Assembly: GCF_003261175.1 (NCBI RefSeq)
Contig: NZ_QLNP01000003.1
Location: forward strand, 1-64,000
Direction of reading: 5' to 3'
Length of the DNA stretch: 64,000 nt
Source of the DNA: Arthrobacter globiformis
GTDB taxonomy: Bacteria > Actinomycetota > Actinomycetes > Actinomycetales > Micrococcaceae
The notes beneath the pieces are model-generated. The model did no database searches and had not been told where the DNA came from. It saw only the letters and a program-made list of their open reading frames with translations. The position numbers were made by a program, and so were the translations under genes. Shown here in pieces: positions 3,401 to 49,394 of this stretch. Numbering within the stretch: the first letter of the stretch is position 1; each line of letters opens with the position of its first letter.

Positions 3401-4280
3401 CGGGGGCAATGTCCCCGCCCGGAACCGCTTCGGCCGAAACACCCAGCGTTTCGGCGAGCCTGCGGTGGACAGTGGCCGTTGCATGGCCAAGGGCATGCGC
3501 CTCGGCCGTGAAGTCCACTCCCCCGGCCGCTGCGTCAACGGCGAGCCGCCACGCGTCCCGGCCGCCGGCCAGGAATTCGTGGGCCACTGCCAGTTCGCCC
3601 CGGGCTGGACCGCCTGAGGCAGTCTCATCCTGGCGAAGTTGAGCCTGCGGGTACCACTCGCCGGTGACCCAGCCCAGTGTGGCGGGGACCTCGGGGGTGC
3701 GGGCCGCGGACAGCGCGGCGCCGATCTCCACCTCCGGGTTTCGCCCGGCCGAAAGCACCCGGAAGAACTTCACGATGGCCGCGGAATCGCCGTCGTCCAC
3801 TATTACCGACGTGTTGGACTGTTCGCCTGACAGGACACGGACCGTCCCGGAGGCCTGCGGCAGCGGCTGCCCGCCCCCGGAAAGGTGGCCGCTGGCCGTG
3901 CCGGCGGCTTCCTCCGTCCGGATCAGGTCCAGCCAGGCGGCGATGAAGGCGGGGTCGTGGACGGCGTCGTAGACCCAGCGGTGCCCAAGTTCGGGATCGT
4001 CGCTCTCACCGATCAGGGCCCGCTCGGCGCCCGGCAGCGGCTGGCTGCGGTAGCTGAGCGGGATCTGGACGACGTCGGTGCGGGAGACGCCGTCGGCCGT
4101 TTTGGACTCGACGGAGGCAAGGAACACCTCCAGGCCGGCCTGGCCGGTGGGGTCATCCAGGACCAGGCCGCCCACCGGCGCCAGGGTGAAGTCCAGAGAC
4201 TTTACCGGGAACCACCTCTGGGCCGGAAGCCAGTCGCGGAGCAGGTGTTCGAGTGTGGGTGTCAGCGTTGTTTGGATCAT
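411..4280 (-). CDS. glgB: Maltokinase fused to 1,4-alpha-glucan branching enzyme
   Basis: A bifunctional protein of about 1289 residues in cytosolic alpha-glucan synthesis. Residues 1-470 are a maltokinase (Mak/Pep2): an N-terminal cap starting near QRWFPVKS, the catalytic loop HGDLHLGQ near 336 and the metal-binding DFEGEP near 361. From about 488 on it is GlgB, with CBM48 domains, then a GH13 barrel with nucleophile [10 protein letters not shown], acid EEST and SHDEVVHGK, then a beta domain. The Ala/Glu/Pro-rich tail of about 60 residues looks disordered. The ATG at 4280 is preferred over an in-frame TTG at 4292: it has GAGGGA in the end of treS and sits 1 nt past the treS stop. An internal ATG at 2816 has its own GGAAGG at 7-nt spacing, so free GlgB may also be made. 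Maltokinase makes maltose 1-phosphate for GlgE; GlgB branches the product. Confidence 0.93.
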
Positions 4281-13924: not shown

Positions 13925-14038
13925 CAATTAAAGCTTAGCTGTCACATCGAAATCGCTGATCTATTCCGGCATGTTACGCATGCGGGGTACGTGGCGGCAC
14001 GCTAAACGCTGTAATGACGCAACGACGTGGAGGTTTTC

Positions 14039-14848
14039 GTGAAGATTGCATTGGCTCAAATCATCACCGGCAGGGATGTGGCCGGGAACCTCACCGTGGT
14101 CGAGGAGTATGCCCGCCGCGCCAAGGACGGCGGCGCCGAGATGGTCGTTTTCCCCGAGGCCACGATGCGGGCCTTCGGCAATTCCCTGCTGGACATCGCC
14201 GAGCCTCTGGACGGCCCCTGGGCCAGCCGCGTCCGCTCGATCGCTGACCGGCTGGGGATAGTGATCGTTGCCGGAATGTTCACTCCAGGTTCAGCGCCGT
14301 CCGAAGGGCAGACGAAGGTGCGCAATACGCTGCTGGTGGCCGGGCCGGGCGTGGACGCCAGCTACGACAAGGTGCACCTTTTCGACGCCTTCGGGTTCCT
14401 GGAGTCGGACACCGTTGACGCCGGGACCGGCCCCGTAACGTTCGACGTCGGCGGCCTCACCTTTGGCCTGGCCACCTGCTACGACATCCGCTTCCCGGCC
14501 CTCTTCACGGCCAACGCTGACCGCGGAGCCGTGGCCAACATCGTCTGCGCGTCCTGGGGTTCCGGCCCCGGCAAGGTCGACCAGTGGCAGCTCCTTGCCC
14601 GTGCCCGGGCCGTGGACACCACCACTTACGTCCTCGCCTGCGGCCAGGGCGATCCCGCCACCCAGGGCATCGAACCGCGGGGCGCGGCGCCCACGGGCGT
14701 GGGGCACAGCGCGGTCGTCTCGCCTTTCGGGCAGGTCCTGGAAGAGCTCGACGGCGCCCCCGGCCTGATCTTCGCCGACCTGGATCCCGATCTGGTCAAG
14801 GAAGCCCGCGCCAAGCTCCCGGTCCTGGCCAACCGCCGGGAGTTCTAA
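14039..14848 (+). CDS. Carbon-nitrogen (nitrilase superfamily) hydrolase
   Basis: A 269-residue amidase-like enzyme with the full nitrilase triad: Glu40 in VVFPEAT, Lys111 in SYDKVHLFD and Cys147 in LATCYDIRFP. The compact length and the CYDIRFP motif suggest the Nit1/Nit2/omega-amidase or deaminated-glutathione amidase branch, which cleaves small amides. Substrate is not deducible. GTG 14039 has GGAGG at 5-nt spacing, which beats an in-frame GTG at 14027. It is convergent with rlmB across the mirrored 32-nt repeat. Confidence 0.9.
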   Translation: MKIALAQIITGRDVAGNLTVVEEYARRAKDGGAEMVVFPEATMRAFGNSLLDIAEPLDGPWASRVRSIADRLGIVIVAGMFTPGSAPSEGQTKVRNTLLVAGPGVDASYDKVHLFDAFGFLESDTVDAGTGPVTFDVGGLTFGLATCYDIRFPALFTANADRGAVANIVCASWGSGPGKVDQWQLLARARAVDTTTYVLACGQGDPATQGIEPRGAAPTGVGHSAVVSPFGQVLEELDGAPGLIFADLDPDLVKEARAKLPVLANRREF

Positions 14849-14856
14849 GGCGCCAG

Positions 14857-15014
14857 AACGCTTCCTCAGATCCTGCCGGAAATCCCCAAACCCTCCTGCA
14901 GCTCCTGCCGCTTAAAACGGAACGCTTCCGCACCCAGGTGCGGAAGCGTTTGCCGGTTCCCTGCGAAAGCTGAGGAAGCGTTTCGTGTTTCCCTGCAGGA
15001 ACTGAGAGAGCGTT
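14857..15014. repeat. Mirrored array of 32-nt repeat units
   Basis: Plus-strand units begin with AACGCTTCC-like cores at 14857, 14889 and 14921. Minus-strand units end at 14950, 14982 and 15014. Every step is exactly 32 nt, and all three pairs share one centre at 14935.5. The central pair forms a perfect 13-bp stem (14921-14933 with 14938-14950) and a 4-nt loop. The consensus unit begins AACGCTTCCTCA and contains TCCTGC about 14 nt in. The array fills the gap between two convergent genes. A related two-unit copy lies at 47351-47414. It is not CRISPR-like, because whole units, not spacers, are similar. Confidence 0.85.
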
Positions 15015-15023
15015 TGGCCGGGG

Positions 15024-16025
15024 TTACTTCGCGGAGCGCTGGCGGGAGACTTCGTAGAGGGAGATGCCGACGGCCATGGAGGCGTTCAGGGATTCCATGG
15101 CGGAGTCGATCGGGATGGAGACGATCTGGTCGCAGTTTTCCCTGACGAGCCGGCTAAGGCCCTTACCCTCGGAGCCGACCACGATGCAGACGGGTTCGGT
15201 GGCAACGGTGAGGTCCGGCAGCGAGACGTCGCCGTCGCCGTCGAGCCCCAGCACGAAGACGCCCATGTCCTTGAACTGCTTGATGGCGTTGTTCAGGTTG
15301 GAGGCGCGGGCCACGGGAACGCGGACAGCCGCGCCGGCGCTGGTCTTCCATGCAGCGGCCGTGACGCCCACGGAGCGGCGCTCGGGGACGATGACACCGT
15401 GGCCGCTGAACGCCGAGACCGAGCGGATGATCGCGCCGAGGTTACGGGGGTCGGTGATGCCGTCCAGGGCGACGAAGAGGGGTGCGTTCGCGATGTGCCC
15501 CTTCTTCCAGCCTTCCACGGTCTCTTCGGCCAGGTCGTAGGCGTCCTGGTACTCGTACGGCGGGATCTGCAGGACGAGCCCTTGGTGCACGGCGTCGTCG
15601 GTCATCCGGTCCAGCTCGGGCTTGCCGGTCTCCAGCAGCGGGATGCCCCGTTCGGCGGCGATCTTCAGCGACTCTTTGACGCGGTCGTCCATCTCGATGC
15701 GGATGGCCACGTGCAGTGCCTTGGCGGGAATGCCGGCGCGCAGCGCCTCCACGACGGAGTTGCGGCCGGTGACGACCTCTTCGGTGGCACGCCCCTTCGG
15801 GCCCGACCGGGCACCGGCACTGCGGGTGCCGCCGGCACCAGCGGGCCGCTTGGCTGCGGAGCGATCCGCGAGCTGCTTGTTCTTGTGCGCCTTGTGGTAG
15901 GGGCGGTCCTCGGCCTTGGGGGTTGGCCCCTTGCCTTCGAGAGCCTTGCGGCCGTGGCCACCGGTTCCGGTGGTGGGGCCCTTCTTGAGCTTGCGGACTG
16001 CGCCCGGGCGACCTTTGTTGGCCAT
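15024..16025 (-). CDS. rlmB: 23S rRNA (guanosine-2'-O-)-methyltransferase, TrmH/SpoU family
   Basis: About 333 residues. The first 90 are a Lys/Arg/Gly-rich, probably disordered, RNA-binding extension typical of actinobacterial RlmB. A SpoU substrate-binding domain (TGRNSVVEALRAG) and a SPOUT methyltransferase domain follow, with the three SPOUT motifs ITDPRNLGAIIRS, IVVGSEGKGLSRL and IPIDSAMESLNASMAVGISL, which form the knotted SAM site. RlmB modifies G2251 of 23S rRNA; the exact target is by family. ATG 16025 (MANKGRP) has GGGTGG upstream. It follows cysS in the same direction with a 92-nt gap, the usual cysS-rlmB order. Confidence 0.93.
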   Translation of the reverse strand: MANKGRPGAVRKLKKGPTTGTGGHGRKALEGKGPTPKAEDRPYHKAHKNKQLADRSAAKRPAGAGGTRSAGARSGPKGRATEEVVTGRNSVVEALRAGIPAKALHVAIRIEMDDRVKESLKIAAERGIPLLETGKPELDRMTDDAVHQGLVLQIPPYEYQDAYDLAEETVEGWKKGHIANAPLFVALDGITDPRNLGAIIRSVSAFSGHGVIVPERRSVGVTAAAWKTSAGAAVRVPVARASNLNNAIKQFKDMGVFVLGLDGDGDVSLPDLTVATEPVCIVVGSEGKGLSRLVRENCDQIVSIPIDSAMESLNASMAVGISLYEVSRQRSAK

Positions 16026-16117
16026 GAATTCCACCCTTGGTTGTATTGAGTAAGTCTGGACTCCAGTCTACTGACTGGCCTCAAATCGTTGACCGGGCGG
16101 GCGCTGAGCCTGGGAGG

Positions 16118-46457: not shown

Positions 46458-47279
46458 ATGCCTACGCCCGAACCCACGCCCGGCGCCCCCTGCTGGGTCG
46501 ACCTTATGACCACCGACGCCAACCAGGCGAAACAGTTCTATGGCGAACTGTTCGGCTGGGACTTCCAGACCGGAGACCAGGAAAAGTACGGCGGCTACAT
46601 CACCGCCCAAAAGAACGGCAAGACCGTCGCCGGCATCATGCAGAAGCAGGAGGACCAGGAGGGTATGCCGGACATGTGGTCCACCTACCTGTGGTCCGAC
46701 GACGCCGCCGCCACAGCCGCGGCGGTTGCCGCAAACGGTGGCCAGGTGTACATGGAGCCCATGGACGTGCCCGAACAGGGCCACATGGCGTTCTTCGGGG
46801 ATGCCTCCGGCGCCACGGTGGGCGTGTGGCAGCCGCGTGAGATGCGCGGTTACGAGCTTGTTGGCGAGCCGGGCGCCCCGGCCTGGCACGAGCTTCACAC
46901 CAAGGACTACTCCGCCGCTGTGAAGTTCTATCAGGACGTGTTTGGCTGGGACACCGACGTCATGAGCGACACCCCGGAGTTCCGGTACACAACCCTGGGC
47001 GCCGGCCGGGAGGCGAAAGCCGGGATCTATGACGCGTCGGCCGACCTTCCCGCCGAAGTCCCCTCCAACTGGGTGGTCTATTTCGCGGTGGAGGACGCTG
47101 ACGCTTCCATCGACAAGGCCGTCAGTTTGGGTGCGACGGTCCTTGACGGACCGGATGACACACCCCACGGCCGGCTGGCCACGCTGACGGACCCCACCGG
47201 GGCGAGGTTCAAGCTCGTGGCCGACACCGGCCAGGGCAACGCGGGCGACGCCGAAACAGGCGGACAGGGCACCCTGTAG
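46458..47279 (+). CDS. Two-domain VOC (glyoxalase/bleomycin-resistance-like) protein
   Basis: 273 residues, two tandem VOC domains: first about 10-125 (PCWVDLMTTDANQAKQFYGE, LFGWDFQTG), second about 138-258 (AWHELHTKDYSAAVKFYQDV, FGWDTDVM). Each has the FYxxxFGW signature and a late beta strand with DPTGA. The family binds metal and small molecules; relatives include hydroxylase-like and antibiotic-binding proteins. The substrate is unknown. ATG 46458 with AGGAG 6-7 nt upstream. It is convergent with the flavoprotein gene across a 32-nt repeat pair. Confidence 0.9.
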   Translation: MPTPEPTPGAPCWVDLMTTDANQAKQFYGELFGWDFQTGDQEKYGGYITAQKNGKTVAGIMQKQEDQEGMPDMWSTYLWSDDAAATAAAVAANGGQVYMEPMDVPEQGHMAFFGDASGATVGVWQPREMRGYELVGEPGAPAWHELHTKDYSAAVKFYQDVFGWDTDVMSDTPEFRYTTLGAGREAKAGIYDASADLPAEVPSNWVVYFAVEDADASIDKAVSLGATVLDGPDDTPHGRLATLTDPTGARFKLVADTGQGNAGDAETGGQGTL

Positions 47280-47350: not shown

Positions 47351-47414
47351 GGTGGCACTCCGGCAGGAGGTGAGTACGCGTTTGAGATCAGGCGGCAGGA
47401 GGTGAGGAAGCGTT
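47351..47414. repeat. Two-unit copy of the 32-nt repeat
   Basis: On the minus strand two units, AACGCTTCCTCACCTCCTGC (from 47414) and AACGCGTACTCACCTCCTGC (from 47382), are exactly 32 nt apart. They match the consensus of the array at 14857-15014. They lie in the same context, between the 3' ends of convergent genes. The first unit forms the last codons of the flavoprotein gene. Confidence 0.75.
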
Positions 47415-49394
47415 TGGGGCCAGGGCGAGGATGGCCCGGGCGATCTCGTCGGCGTCGCGGAGCGTGCGCTGCCCGCTGGGGTACACCGGGCCGGCCTGCT
47501 GTGCCGCCTCGGCGGCAATGGCCGTGCCCCACTGCGTAGCCGAGAGCTGCAGCCCCAGCACGTACATCCGGTCCGTGACCTCGCCGTTCGCGGCAACCGG
47601 CCGGTACGGGTGCGGGCGGACGTCGAGCCCGGAGGCCTGCACCGGGGTGCCTTCCACTGTCATCATGGTCCGAGGCCGGACGAGCCCGTCGGCGAGGAGC
47701 TGTTCCAGCAGCCGGGACTCGTTCAGGGCCACCCGGTTGGCCGGGGCCAGTGCCTCCACCAGAGTGTGTGCTTCCGCGGCACCGCCCCGAACCCACGGCG
47801 AGGCGGCGGTGAAGGCGCGTTTTCCGCGGGCCACGCCGAACTTGGGGTCCGGGCCCACGAAGCTGACAATTCCGGCTCGTGCCAGAGCTGCCAGCTGCTC
47901 GGCGCGCAGCGCCGGAGGACCGCTGGCCAGGCCCTCCACCAGCGACTCAAACCAGCCCCGCAGGCCGGCGACCCATGACTCGTCGGTGATCCCGCCGTCG
48001 GCCACCACCGATTTCAGCACCGCGCGGCCGTGGTGCAGCGCGCCGATGGCCATCTTGACGGGGTCGTCCTCGCCGAGCGCTGAGCGCCGGGCATCGTCGT
48101 CGAGGTACTCGACGACGGCGGCATCCAGCTCGGCACGCGAAGCAAAGCTCCGACCGGACAGCGGGGCGGCCAGGCCGCGCAGGTCCAGCCTGCCGCCCTG
48201 GCGGACATGGCGGCCGACGACGGCGTTAAAGTCCGCTTCCCACCGGCCGGTGCTGTGGGCATGCGGGTGCAGGGCCTCGTCCAGCTCCTTGAGGAACGCG
48301 GCGTGGTCCTGCACGGCGTCCGGCTGCGAGCGCACGAGGGTCGTGTAGTAGGCCCAGAGCGCGTCCCGGTGCAGCAGCGGCCAGAGGTCGTGGTCGAATG
48401 CCGGAACGATTCCGGCGGCCGCAAACCTCTGCAGTGCTTTCCCGGTGAAGTAGCGGAGCGTGACCGACGCCGGGTAGTAGCCCGCGAGGGTGGCCTTGGA
48501 CCGGTACGGCGTTCCGCGCCGGGACGCGGCGAAGATGATCGGCTCCTGGCCAGAAGGCAGGTACTCGAGGGTGTCCCCTGCCTCCACGAACTTTCCGCCC
48601 CGGCCCTCCGTGAGCTGGCCCATCACATCGAAGAAGTTAAGGCCCATCCCGCGGACCAGCACCGGCTCCTGCGCGGGAATCACACTCCAGTCGACGTCGG
48701 CCGGGACGGCGGGCGGCAAGTAGCGCAGGCCGAGTTGAGCGGCGGCTGCCTGCAGTTCGCGCTGCTCCGGGCTGAGGCGGGACGCGAGGTGGCCCAGCGC
48801 GAGCACCACCGAATCGACGGTGAGGGTCCCGCCACCGTCCGGTTCGCCGCCGTCGAGTTCGCCCGCGTCCAGTCCTCCCCGGTCCAGTTCGACCTCGAAC
48901 CTTCCGTCCGGTTGCCGGCGCGCAGCGGTAGCCGTCGCCTGGTGCATCTCGATCGTGACGCCGTCGGGCAGCGCGGCGAGCAGCTCCTCGACGGTGGACC
49001 GCAGGTAGCGGCCGTAGATGGCGCGGCTGGGGAAGTCTCCGGATCCCAGTACGCCGAGCTCCGCCCGCTCGTCATCGGTGAGCTCCGGCAGGGGGCTGCG
49101 CTGCTGGGCTGCCCGCCAGCGGTCGAACGTGGTGCCGGCCAAAGGCGCCGCCAGCCCCGTGTCCTCGGGGACCAGCGTGGGGTAGAACGACTGAGTGTTC
49201 ATCAGGTAGAGGCGGGACTGGCCGGGCTGCCAGACGTGCCCCGGGCCGGCCGGAAACGGGTCAATGACATCTATGTGCAGGCGGGCTCCCGCAGGGCGGG
49301 CGGCGGACCAGTTGGCGAGCAGCCGCTCCAGCACGCTGGTACCCCTCGGACCGGCGCCGATCAGCGCCGTCCGGATGCTCTGCGAAATAACCAC
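47388..49394 (-). CDS. FAD/NAD(P)-binding protein (HcrB-like/NAD_binding_9 family)
   Basis: 668 residues. The start TALIGAGPRGTSVLERLLAN is the FAD/NAD(P) Rossmann loop (about 8-27). DPFPAGPGHVWQPGQ follows, then a second glycine-rich part with VDSVVLALGHLASRL and MGLNFFDVMGQLTEGRGG. The C-terminal half is alpha-helical with VQASGLDVRPHPYRPV. The family is annotated only as FAD/NAD(P)-binding; no substrate is known. GTG 49394 with GGAAAG close upstream. The last codons (APNASSPPAA) are contributed by the 32-nt repeat, which suggests the repeat was inserted into or extended the gene's 3' end. Confidence 0.82.
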   Translation of the reverse strand: MVISQSIRTALIGAGPRGTSVLERLLANWSAARPAGARLHIDVIDPFPAGPGHVWQPGQSRLYLMNTQSFYPTLVPEDTGLAAPLAGTTFDRWRAAQQRSPLPELTDDERAELGVLGSGDFPSRAIYGRYLRSTVEELLAALPDGVTIEMHQATATAARRQPDGRFEVELDRGGLDAGELDGGEPDGGGTLTVDSVVLALGHLASRLSPEQRELQAAAAQLGLRYLPPAVPADVDWSVIPAQEPVLVRGMGLNFFDVMGQLTEGRGGKFVEAGDTLEYLPSGQEPIIFAASRRGTPYRSKATLAGYYPASVTLRYFTGKALQRFAAAGIVPAFDHDLWPLLHRDALWAYYTTLVRSQPDAVQDHAAFLKELDEALHPHAHSTGRWEADFNAVVGRHVRQGGRLDLRGLAAPLSGRSFASRAELDAAVVEYLDDDARRSALGEDDPVKMAIGALHHGRAVLKSVVADGGITDESWVAGLRGWFESLVEGLASGPPALRAEQLAALARAGIVSFVGPDPKFGVARGKRAFTAASPWVRGGAAEAHTLVEALAPANRVALNESRLLEQLLADGLVRPRTMMTVEGTPVQASGLDVRPHPYRPVAANGEVTDRMYVLGLQLSATQWGTAIAAEAAQQAGPVYPSGQRTLRDADEIARAILALAPNASSPPAA

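Follow-up and report, generated by a model that had tools for sequence, protein, structure and literature searches.

The window analysed here is a stretch of 64,000 nt of the Arthrobacter globiformis genome (contig NZ_QLNP01000003.1, positions 1 to 64,000), and it holds two loci at which a 13-nt core recurs at a step of 32 nt. Window genes are those predicted by a purpose-written codon-score caller alone, which missed some genes. The genes and features of the two loci are the following.

14027..14848, plus strand: carbon-nitrogen hydrolase gene of locus 1 (PF00795), convergent, upstream of the array; stop-to-array distance 8 nt
14857..14933, minus strand: left arm of locus 1; cores of 13 nt each at 14857-14869, 14889-14901 and 14921-14933, 32-nt step
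14921..14950, no strand: central inverted repeat of locus 1, perfect over 14 bp (14921-14934 / 14937-14950)
14938..15014, plus strand: right arm of locus 1; cores at 14938-14950, 14970-14982 and 15002-15014, 32-nt step
15024..16034, minus strand: SpoU-type RNA methyltransferase gene of locus 1 (rlmB-like; PF00588, PF08032), convergent, downstream of the array; stop-to-array distance 9 nt
46506..47279, plus strand: glyoxalase-fold protein gene of locus 2, convergent with the gene at 47388-49394 on the minus strand
47370..47414, plus strand: locus 2 array, a single arm with cores at 47370-47382 and 47402-47414, at the 3' end of the gene at 47388-49394
47388..49394, minus strand: FAD-NAD(P)-binding gene of locus 2 (PF13454); its final codons overlap the locus 2 array

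Locus 1 has six copies of the core (consensus GTGMGRRAGSGTY), of which the first three lie on the minus strand and the last three on the plus strand. Every step is exactly 32 nt and the centre lies at 14935.5, in agreement with the mirrored layout proposed in an earlier sequence-only reading of the window. The perfect central hairpin of that reading is indeed a perfect inverted repeat, with a length of 14 bp rather than 13 bp. The middle unit of the left arm (14889) is degenerate. Transcripts of the upstream gene read the left arm as a pyrimidine-rich sequence, and those of the minus-strand rlmB-type gene do so for the right arm. As RNA, the intergenic stretch folds at -86 kcal/mol (z -6). A scan for T-tract terminators at locus 1 found none, and the best Rfam match at 14750-15150 (E 0.54) was far under the gathering threshold, which only four tRNAs reached in the whole window.

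Locus 2 had been regarded as a sister copy of locus 1. It does have two cores 32 nt apart (47370, with two mismatches, and 47402), but it consists of one arm, and the opposite arm of a mirror is absent. Array units share 47388-47414 with the last codons of the FAD-NAD(P)-binding gene, so that the array reaches into the coding end. According to the gene caller, both loci lie between convergent genes, as had been claimed. In the window alone, core matches at up to three mismatches numbered 11 against 4.1 expected, which is borderline (1 of 100 shuffles also reaches 11).

In the whole genome, the core at up to two mismatches gave 55 matches and its reversed form 11; for pairs of cores 32 nt apart the numbers were 36 and 0. 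The 32-nt period thus extends beyond the two loci, and the earlier suggestion of a dispersed element holds, also in further genomes. The two-core pattern was positive in 26 of 59 genomes (that of the window included); all 26 come from the genus of the window, which contributed 37 of the 59, and the reversed control gave no match in any of the 59. A family-level search was positive in 25 of 295 genomes, from two genera only. When the middle core bases were left free, arrays were found in 8 of the 11 same-genus genomes previously without matches, with variant cores such as TGATGGGGCGT; this search covered 40 genomes, two of which gave one control match each. Three genomes of the genus (G005, G007 and G014) had no arrays even with the middle bases free. 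The core variant switches genome-wide between species. A scan of genome contigs yielded at least 115 stretches, and the 80 matches listed were all Arthrobacter, Pseudarthrobacter, Paenarthrobacter or Micrococcaceae by name. The narrow distribution rests on the searches of 59, 295 and 40 genomes, within the groups sampled. Viral contigs, phages and plasmids searched for arrays gave no matches, and a phage or plasmid origin was rejected on this ground. The family consists of dozens of 32-nt-period arrays after gene ends in the Arthrobacter group.

Across 384 unit pairs from at least 115 loci, the unit runs in the order GTGAGRRAGSGTY, SSSSN, an A-biased W-tract, SSY, GCRRRAN and the next core, with the conserved GCRRRA directly preceding the core GTGAGRRAGSGTY. 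Same-strand neighbours with exact cores were spaced at 31, 32 and 33 nt in 3, 220 and 3 cases, respectively. Linkers from different arrays were no more alike (0.418) than after column shuffling (0.420), compared to 0.819 for the cores. Within an arm the linkers were 0.771 alike, and between opposite arms they barely matched (0.447 versus 0.418). Since the linkers are saturated while the cores stay alike, each core must be under selection, and both the cores and the 32-nt step are retained as the linkers drift to saturation. The likeness of linkers within an arm, together with the saturation between arrays and the retained cores, indicates that arms grow by tandem duplication and that their linkers subsequently drift. 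Linker composition shows an S/W/S/A alternation over ~10 bp; over the whole unit, a 10.67-nt signal was not above the 8-nt one (0.080 versus 0.079). Hairpins inside the linkers were dismissed because pairing was below that of shuffled sequences (1.67 versus 1.78). The Shine-Dalgarno-like content of the purine strand, whose consensus contains AGGARGTGA, was likewise dismissed, as the positions preceding GTGA vary among species (by reading).

The gene context was determined with a strict array finder, which returned 146 arrays in true sequence and 11 in reversed sequence; a permissive finder (three mismatches) gave many false units, and only its gene-to-gene comparison was used. In the at least 115 stretches, which had been chosen for holding arrays, 55 of the 146 loci were convergent, 54 tandem, 9 divergent, 4 intragenic and 24 at a stretch edge. 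The recount left out the edge and intragenic loci as well as 23 loci with gene gaps >600 nt, where the caller misses some genes. It gave 43 convergent, 45 tandem and 7 divergent arrays, against a background of 114 convergent among 596 gene pairs (p 1.3e-7). The predicted enrichment at convergent gene ends is therefore present, but arrays between co-oriented genes are just as frequent (45/95), which means that convergence is not required. Without long gaps, 8 of 17 arrays were convergent in the window's own genome (p 0.01) and 9 of 17 in the sister genome G002 (p 0.002). In the stretches taken, the own genome had 24 strict arrays (2 in reversed sequence; 12 convergent, 10 tandem, 1 divergent, 1 edge) and G002 had 26 (0 in reversed sequence; 13 convergent, 9 tandem, 3 divergent, 1 edge). 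Two fhs arrays of G000 were wrongly labelled convergent, the caller having missed genes between the arms. For this reason, the notion that the arms of one convergent pair may stand 1 kb apart was dropped. The sequence-only reading had named three outcomes that would speak against it, namely two loci only, no 32-nt period elsewhere and no enrichment at convergent ends; none of these was observed.

Arrays are strongly polar with respect to their neighbours. Among gene 3' ends within 150 nt, 143 of 154 face an arm that reads as pyrimidine-rich in their mRNA, at a median stop-to-array distance of 9 nt (n=154). The 5' ends lie farther away (median 63 nt, n=50). Single-arm arrays in tandem gene pairs have the orientation that fits the upstream gene in 18 of 22 cases. 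From this polarity and closeness to 3' ends it follows that an arm goes with the gene transcribed towards it, as part of that gene's 3' end, and that the mirror is secondary. Recurrent array neighbours resemble housekeeping genes, rlmB and fhs among them; the names of the others are presumptive. A partner gene beside the arrays was rejected, given these housekeeping-like neighbours.

Two-arm arrays numbered 95 and one-arm arrays 51. The arms followed the minus-then-plus order in 85 of the 95, and the other 10 deviated. The centre gap had modes at 3, 5 and 13 nt, with 29 different lengths among the 85 arrays. Perfect pairing was more common for central core pairs (35 of 72 arrays) than for outer mirrored pairs (15 of 78; p 2e-4), which indicates that the centre is kept paired where arms meet. 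T-runs of at least three occurred at 19 of 144 central ends. The pairing of one-arm arrays was scored for 63 of 66, three having too little flank. On the inner side, 62 of the 63 paired at no more than 10 of 13 positions within 60 nt and one reached 12; on the outer control side four reached 11, so that the inner side was no better. The absence of a partner at 62 of the 63 indicates that the basic module is a single arm and not the mirrored pair. Under a looser rule, applied with no control, 58 of the 66 were flagged as possibly partnered. In the eight arrays unpartnered even by that rule, the cores of units with diverged linkers were 0.883 alike (19 pairs), and the same comparison for two-arm arrays gave 0.854 (433 pairs). 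A bidirectional terminator, one of the roles first suggested, is plausible at mirrored loci, but T-runs are short and many arrays are one-armed without a hairpin.

Two observations concern the array centres and the hairpins. At three loci, the inner end of array units borders directly on one and the same insertion-sequence-like end, which reads TGAACTGCTCCCCGGAAGTTGGACT reversed or a close variant of it (L079:333-357; L112:543-567; L191:2558 and 3968-3992, the rlmB locus of G388). This suggests preferential insertion at array centres, as in REPs. Furthermore, G014, array-free by the patterns used, has long hairpins at the 3' ends of fhs (L259) and rlmB (L189), the ends of which read TGACCCCGCGTT, i.e., the array core with a different middle. 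G014 may therefore carry the family in a hairpin-only form.

Comparison with G002, whose rlmB protein is 99% identical to that of the own genome, covered 14 locus pairs, many with matching flanking genes; G002 was sampled at the sites of its own arrays. The detected number of units differed in 11 of 13 aligned arrays, one of which (L226/L237) was poorly aligned, and three rows could not be mapped. Five alignment gaps were exactly 32 nt and one was 64 nt; the others were near these lengths or irregular. The whole-unit differences support the earlier idea that arms expand and contract, here between two sister species.

The rlmB search covered 81 genomes, and the 30 loci whose proteins are closest to that of the own genome were compared. 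An array or a family hairpin was present at 21 of 23 convergent loci and at 1 of 7 co-oriented loci (by eye, kinship ignored), G010 and G014 having the hairpin only. Unit number and core variant vary by species. At fhs, 26 of the 31 genomes searched were scored (G028, at a contig end, G009 and G030, with partial gene matches, G019, weak, and G027, without a match, were not), and 13 of the 26 had a single arm of at least three units directly past the stop codon (kinship ignored). Twelve of these calls were made by script and that of G010 by eye, its core being outside the script pattern. In the genomes with an arm, the local MFE in the first 200 nt was never stronger than -28.6 kcal/mol per 75 nt, and in the other 13 it was -33.5 or stronger. 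Three of these 13 hairpin genomes (G013, G008, G023) also had array units, by eye, and the hairpin of G005 lies in a region that looks rearranged. Given this either-or pattern, the arm seems to take the place of a terminator, and the simplest reading would be that arm and hairpin are interchangeable means to one task. In the place of the arm, L262, L263, L265, L266, L273 and L274 show a long, almost perfect hairpin whose end reads CTGATAGAGCAAC or nearly so and resembles the array core CTGATAGAGCGTT. Just past the fhs arm and before the next gene, many species (e.g., L253, L261, L267) have a conserved CTGTGGATAACTTCTGC, containing TGTGGATAA, which we take to resemble a DnaA box.

The arrays probably act in transcription termination or as a 3' boundary of genes. 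Tentatively, and close to an even call, the arms might be orientation-specific, factor-dependent terminators, with Rho as the likeliest factor; we infer both the function and the factor. The arm would be a 3'-end module of at least two copies of the 32-nt unit placed right behind the stop codon, and the nascent mRNA would contain RACSCTYYCTCAC-NTYYYGC over and over. After the release of the ribosome at the stop codon, C-rich and G-poor repeat RNA would be exposed and could load Rho, which would end transcription inside the array or just past it. Where genes converge, two arms would meet to form a mirrored array, and the hairpin at its centre might serve as a pause site or second terminator in both directions. 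A factor seems to be needed because hairpins after stop codons terminate and one-arm arrays have none.

The composition of the RNA is consistent with the proposed role of Rho. Single arms of at least three units contain 43.5% C and 18.4% G, and fold no better than shuffled sequences (z -0.05). RNA with C in excess of G over ~78 nt past the stop codon, as expected of a Rho terminator, was found in 49 of 51 single arms, and C exceeded 1.5 times G in 74 of 151 array 3' flanks compared to 21 of 247 other 3' flanks. The array RNA therefore matches published descriptions of Rho loading sites as C-rich, G-poor, ribosome-free RNA (PMC6407284; PMC9160355). The actinobacterial Rho described in PMC4167861 has an additional RNA-binding stretch, and M. 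luteus Rho terminates where E. coli Rho cannot (as cited in PMC4167861). Rho was found in all nine genomes searched, with open frames of 727-770 aa. It was also present in the array-free G005, G007 and G014, and thus its presence is not discriminating.

Other features fit this proposal less well. In 80 arms, chains of YC dimers at N9-13 spacing were shorter than in their own shuffles (4.88 versus 5.86), and chains of six or more occurred in 24 of the 80 arms versus 55% of shuffles. Only spacings of 10-11 nt (4.19 versus 3.80) and 10-12 nt (5.11 versus 4.72) were slightly above shuffles, and G was weakly depleted in the spacers between cores (0.285 versus 0.308). Rho requires no fixed 13-nt core and no base-exact 32-nt step. 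The genome-wide change of the core variant between species is not explained by Rho either. Folds of 60 nt below -25 kcal/mol were almost as frequent in array 3' flanks (52%) as in other 3' flanks (60%).

An alternative explanation, possible although rather doubtful, is a phased DNA-binding array, in line with the protein site suggested in the sequence-only reading. A sequence-specific protein would occupy each ~20-bp site on one helix face (three turns per step), and the polar array would block RNA polymerase, insulate convergent genes or organise the chromosome, much as gyrase does with BIME-2; in function this overlaps with the Rho proposal. Such an array would account better than Rho for the conserved core and the exact step, which is 32 nt in 220 of the 226 neighbours at 31-33 nt despite saturated linkers and variable centre gaps. 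The ~10-bp linker alternation, the equal conservation of cores in one-arm and two-arm arrays and the genome-wide change of the core variant, as if its reader co-evolved, point in the same direction. A gyrase motif phased at 10.75 bp and gyrase sites downstream of transcribed units have been described (PMC6379681). However, the 10.67-nt signal was no stronger than the 8-nt one, and neither the pyrimidine strand bias nor the either-or pattern with hairpins at fhs is predicted by such an array. No candidate protein or partner gene was found among PF03457, PF01797 and the array neighbours. Proteins with the helicase-associated (HA) domain (PF03457) were rejected as partners, being absent in 6 of 18 array-bearing genomes. 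As a separate observation, G172, of another genus, had 21 HA-domain matches compared to 0-5 in 33 other genomes. A broader version, which we consider unlikely, is a genus-wide, sequence-specific gene-end code, in which a factor would read a polar 20-nt motif at 32-nt steps and the two would change together between species.

It is quite improbable that the arrays are a REP/BIME-like mobile element or a neutral minisatellite that spreads by copying and slippage and settles at gene ends as harmless. Their dispersal in genome-specific variants, the gain and loss of whole units between sister species and the 77% likeness of linkers within an arm would fit, as would the insertion-sequence-like ends at array centres, since REPs are reported as insertion-sequence targets (PMC1525189). 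Yet loci recur across species, orientation is strict, cores are conserved beside saturated linkers, viral contigs, phages and plasmids gave no matches, and the Y1 transposase is absent from the array-bearing genomes searched. Very improbable is an RNA-stem element, in which mirrored units would pair into an extended rod, with protection of mRNA 3' ends or intrinsic termination as its role: the fold of the window stretch and the excess of perfect central pairs agree with it, but one-arm arrays lack a partner beyond control level, linkers of opposite arms are hardly alike and T-runs at central ends are few.

With factor-dependent termination as the preferred reading, the arrays can be compared to known systems. 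They do not seem to have been described before: among the matches listed by literature searches in open-licence papers, one of them by sequence, none describes them. The words Arthrobacter and Actinobacteria are absent from the main text of PMC3733652, and PMC12306157 has one Arthrobacter species, in a table only.

Like REP, REPIN and BIME elements, which are dispersed, intergenic, near 3' ends, mostly in convergent or co-oriented contexts and often paired in opposite orientation (PMC3733652), the arrays are dispersed at 3' ends in convergent as well as co-oriented contexts. Each REP, however, is itself palindromic and carries a GTAG or CGTC tag (PMC3733652), whereas the array unit has no internal dyad, as the linker pairing and the partnerless one-arm arrays indicate, and is repeated head-to-tail every 32 nt. 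Membership of REPIN/RAYT was rejected because PF01797 (Y1 transposase) was absent in 18 of 18 array-bearing genomes; its one occurrence among 34 genomes was in G151, a genome without array matches. The arrays thus lack the defining features of REP/BIME despite similar placement. The likeness to gyrase-bound BIME-2 is one of base composition, as an analogy only. The MIRU minisatellites of mycobacteria, likewise actinobacterial, are also repeated in tandem at dispersed sites and in variable copy number, but their units are longer, and they are not known to have mirrored arms or a strict 3'-end polarity of this kind. The whole-unit differences between sister species suggest that the arrays could provide a marker set for strain typing.

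Bidirectional intrinsic terminators share with the arrays a central hairpin between convergent genes, and some genomes have the hairpin only at the same place. The arrays differ in their short or missing U-tract, in their flanking tandem half-units and in the many cases without a hairpin; the GC-rich hairpin followed by a U-tract was found neither in the scan of locus 1 nor in the one-arm arrays, which are hairpin-free. With rut sites the arrays have in common C-rich, G-poor, ribosome-free RNA of at least 70-80 nt past genes, and Rho loading needs neither hairpin nor U-tract (PMC6407284; PMC9160355). Rut sites, in contrast, are defined by composition and spacing and have no common sequence (PMC6407284; PMC9160355), whereas the arrays combine a core of conserved sequence with a strict 32-nt step and another YC spacing. 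This lack of a common sequence makes Rho-dependent termination sites hard to recognise. If the Rho reading is true, the arrays would be alignable natural 3'-end elements from dozens of species that expose what a C-rich terminator needs, and the hairpins at the same locus in other species would make those needs easier to test. If a DNA-binding protein reads the arrays, they would represent a new chromosome-boundary system with a strict 32-bp step. A gene-end code, if true, would be a termination or boundary system with periodic, fast-evolving sites, unlike intrinsic terminators, ordinary rut sites and REPs.
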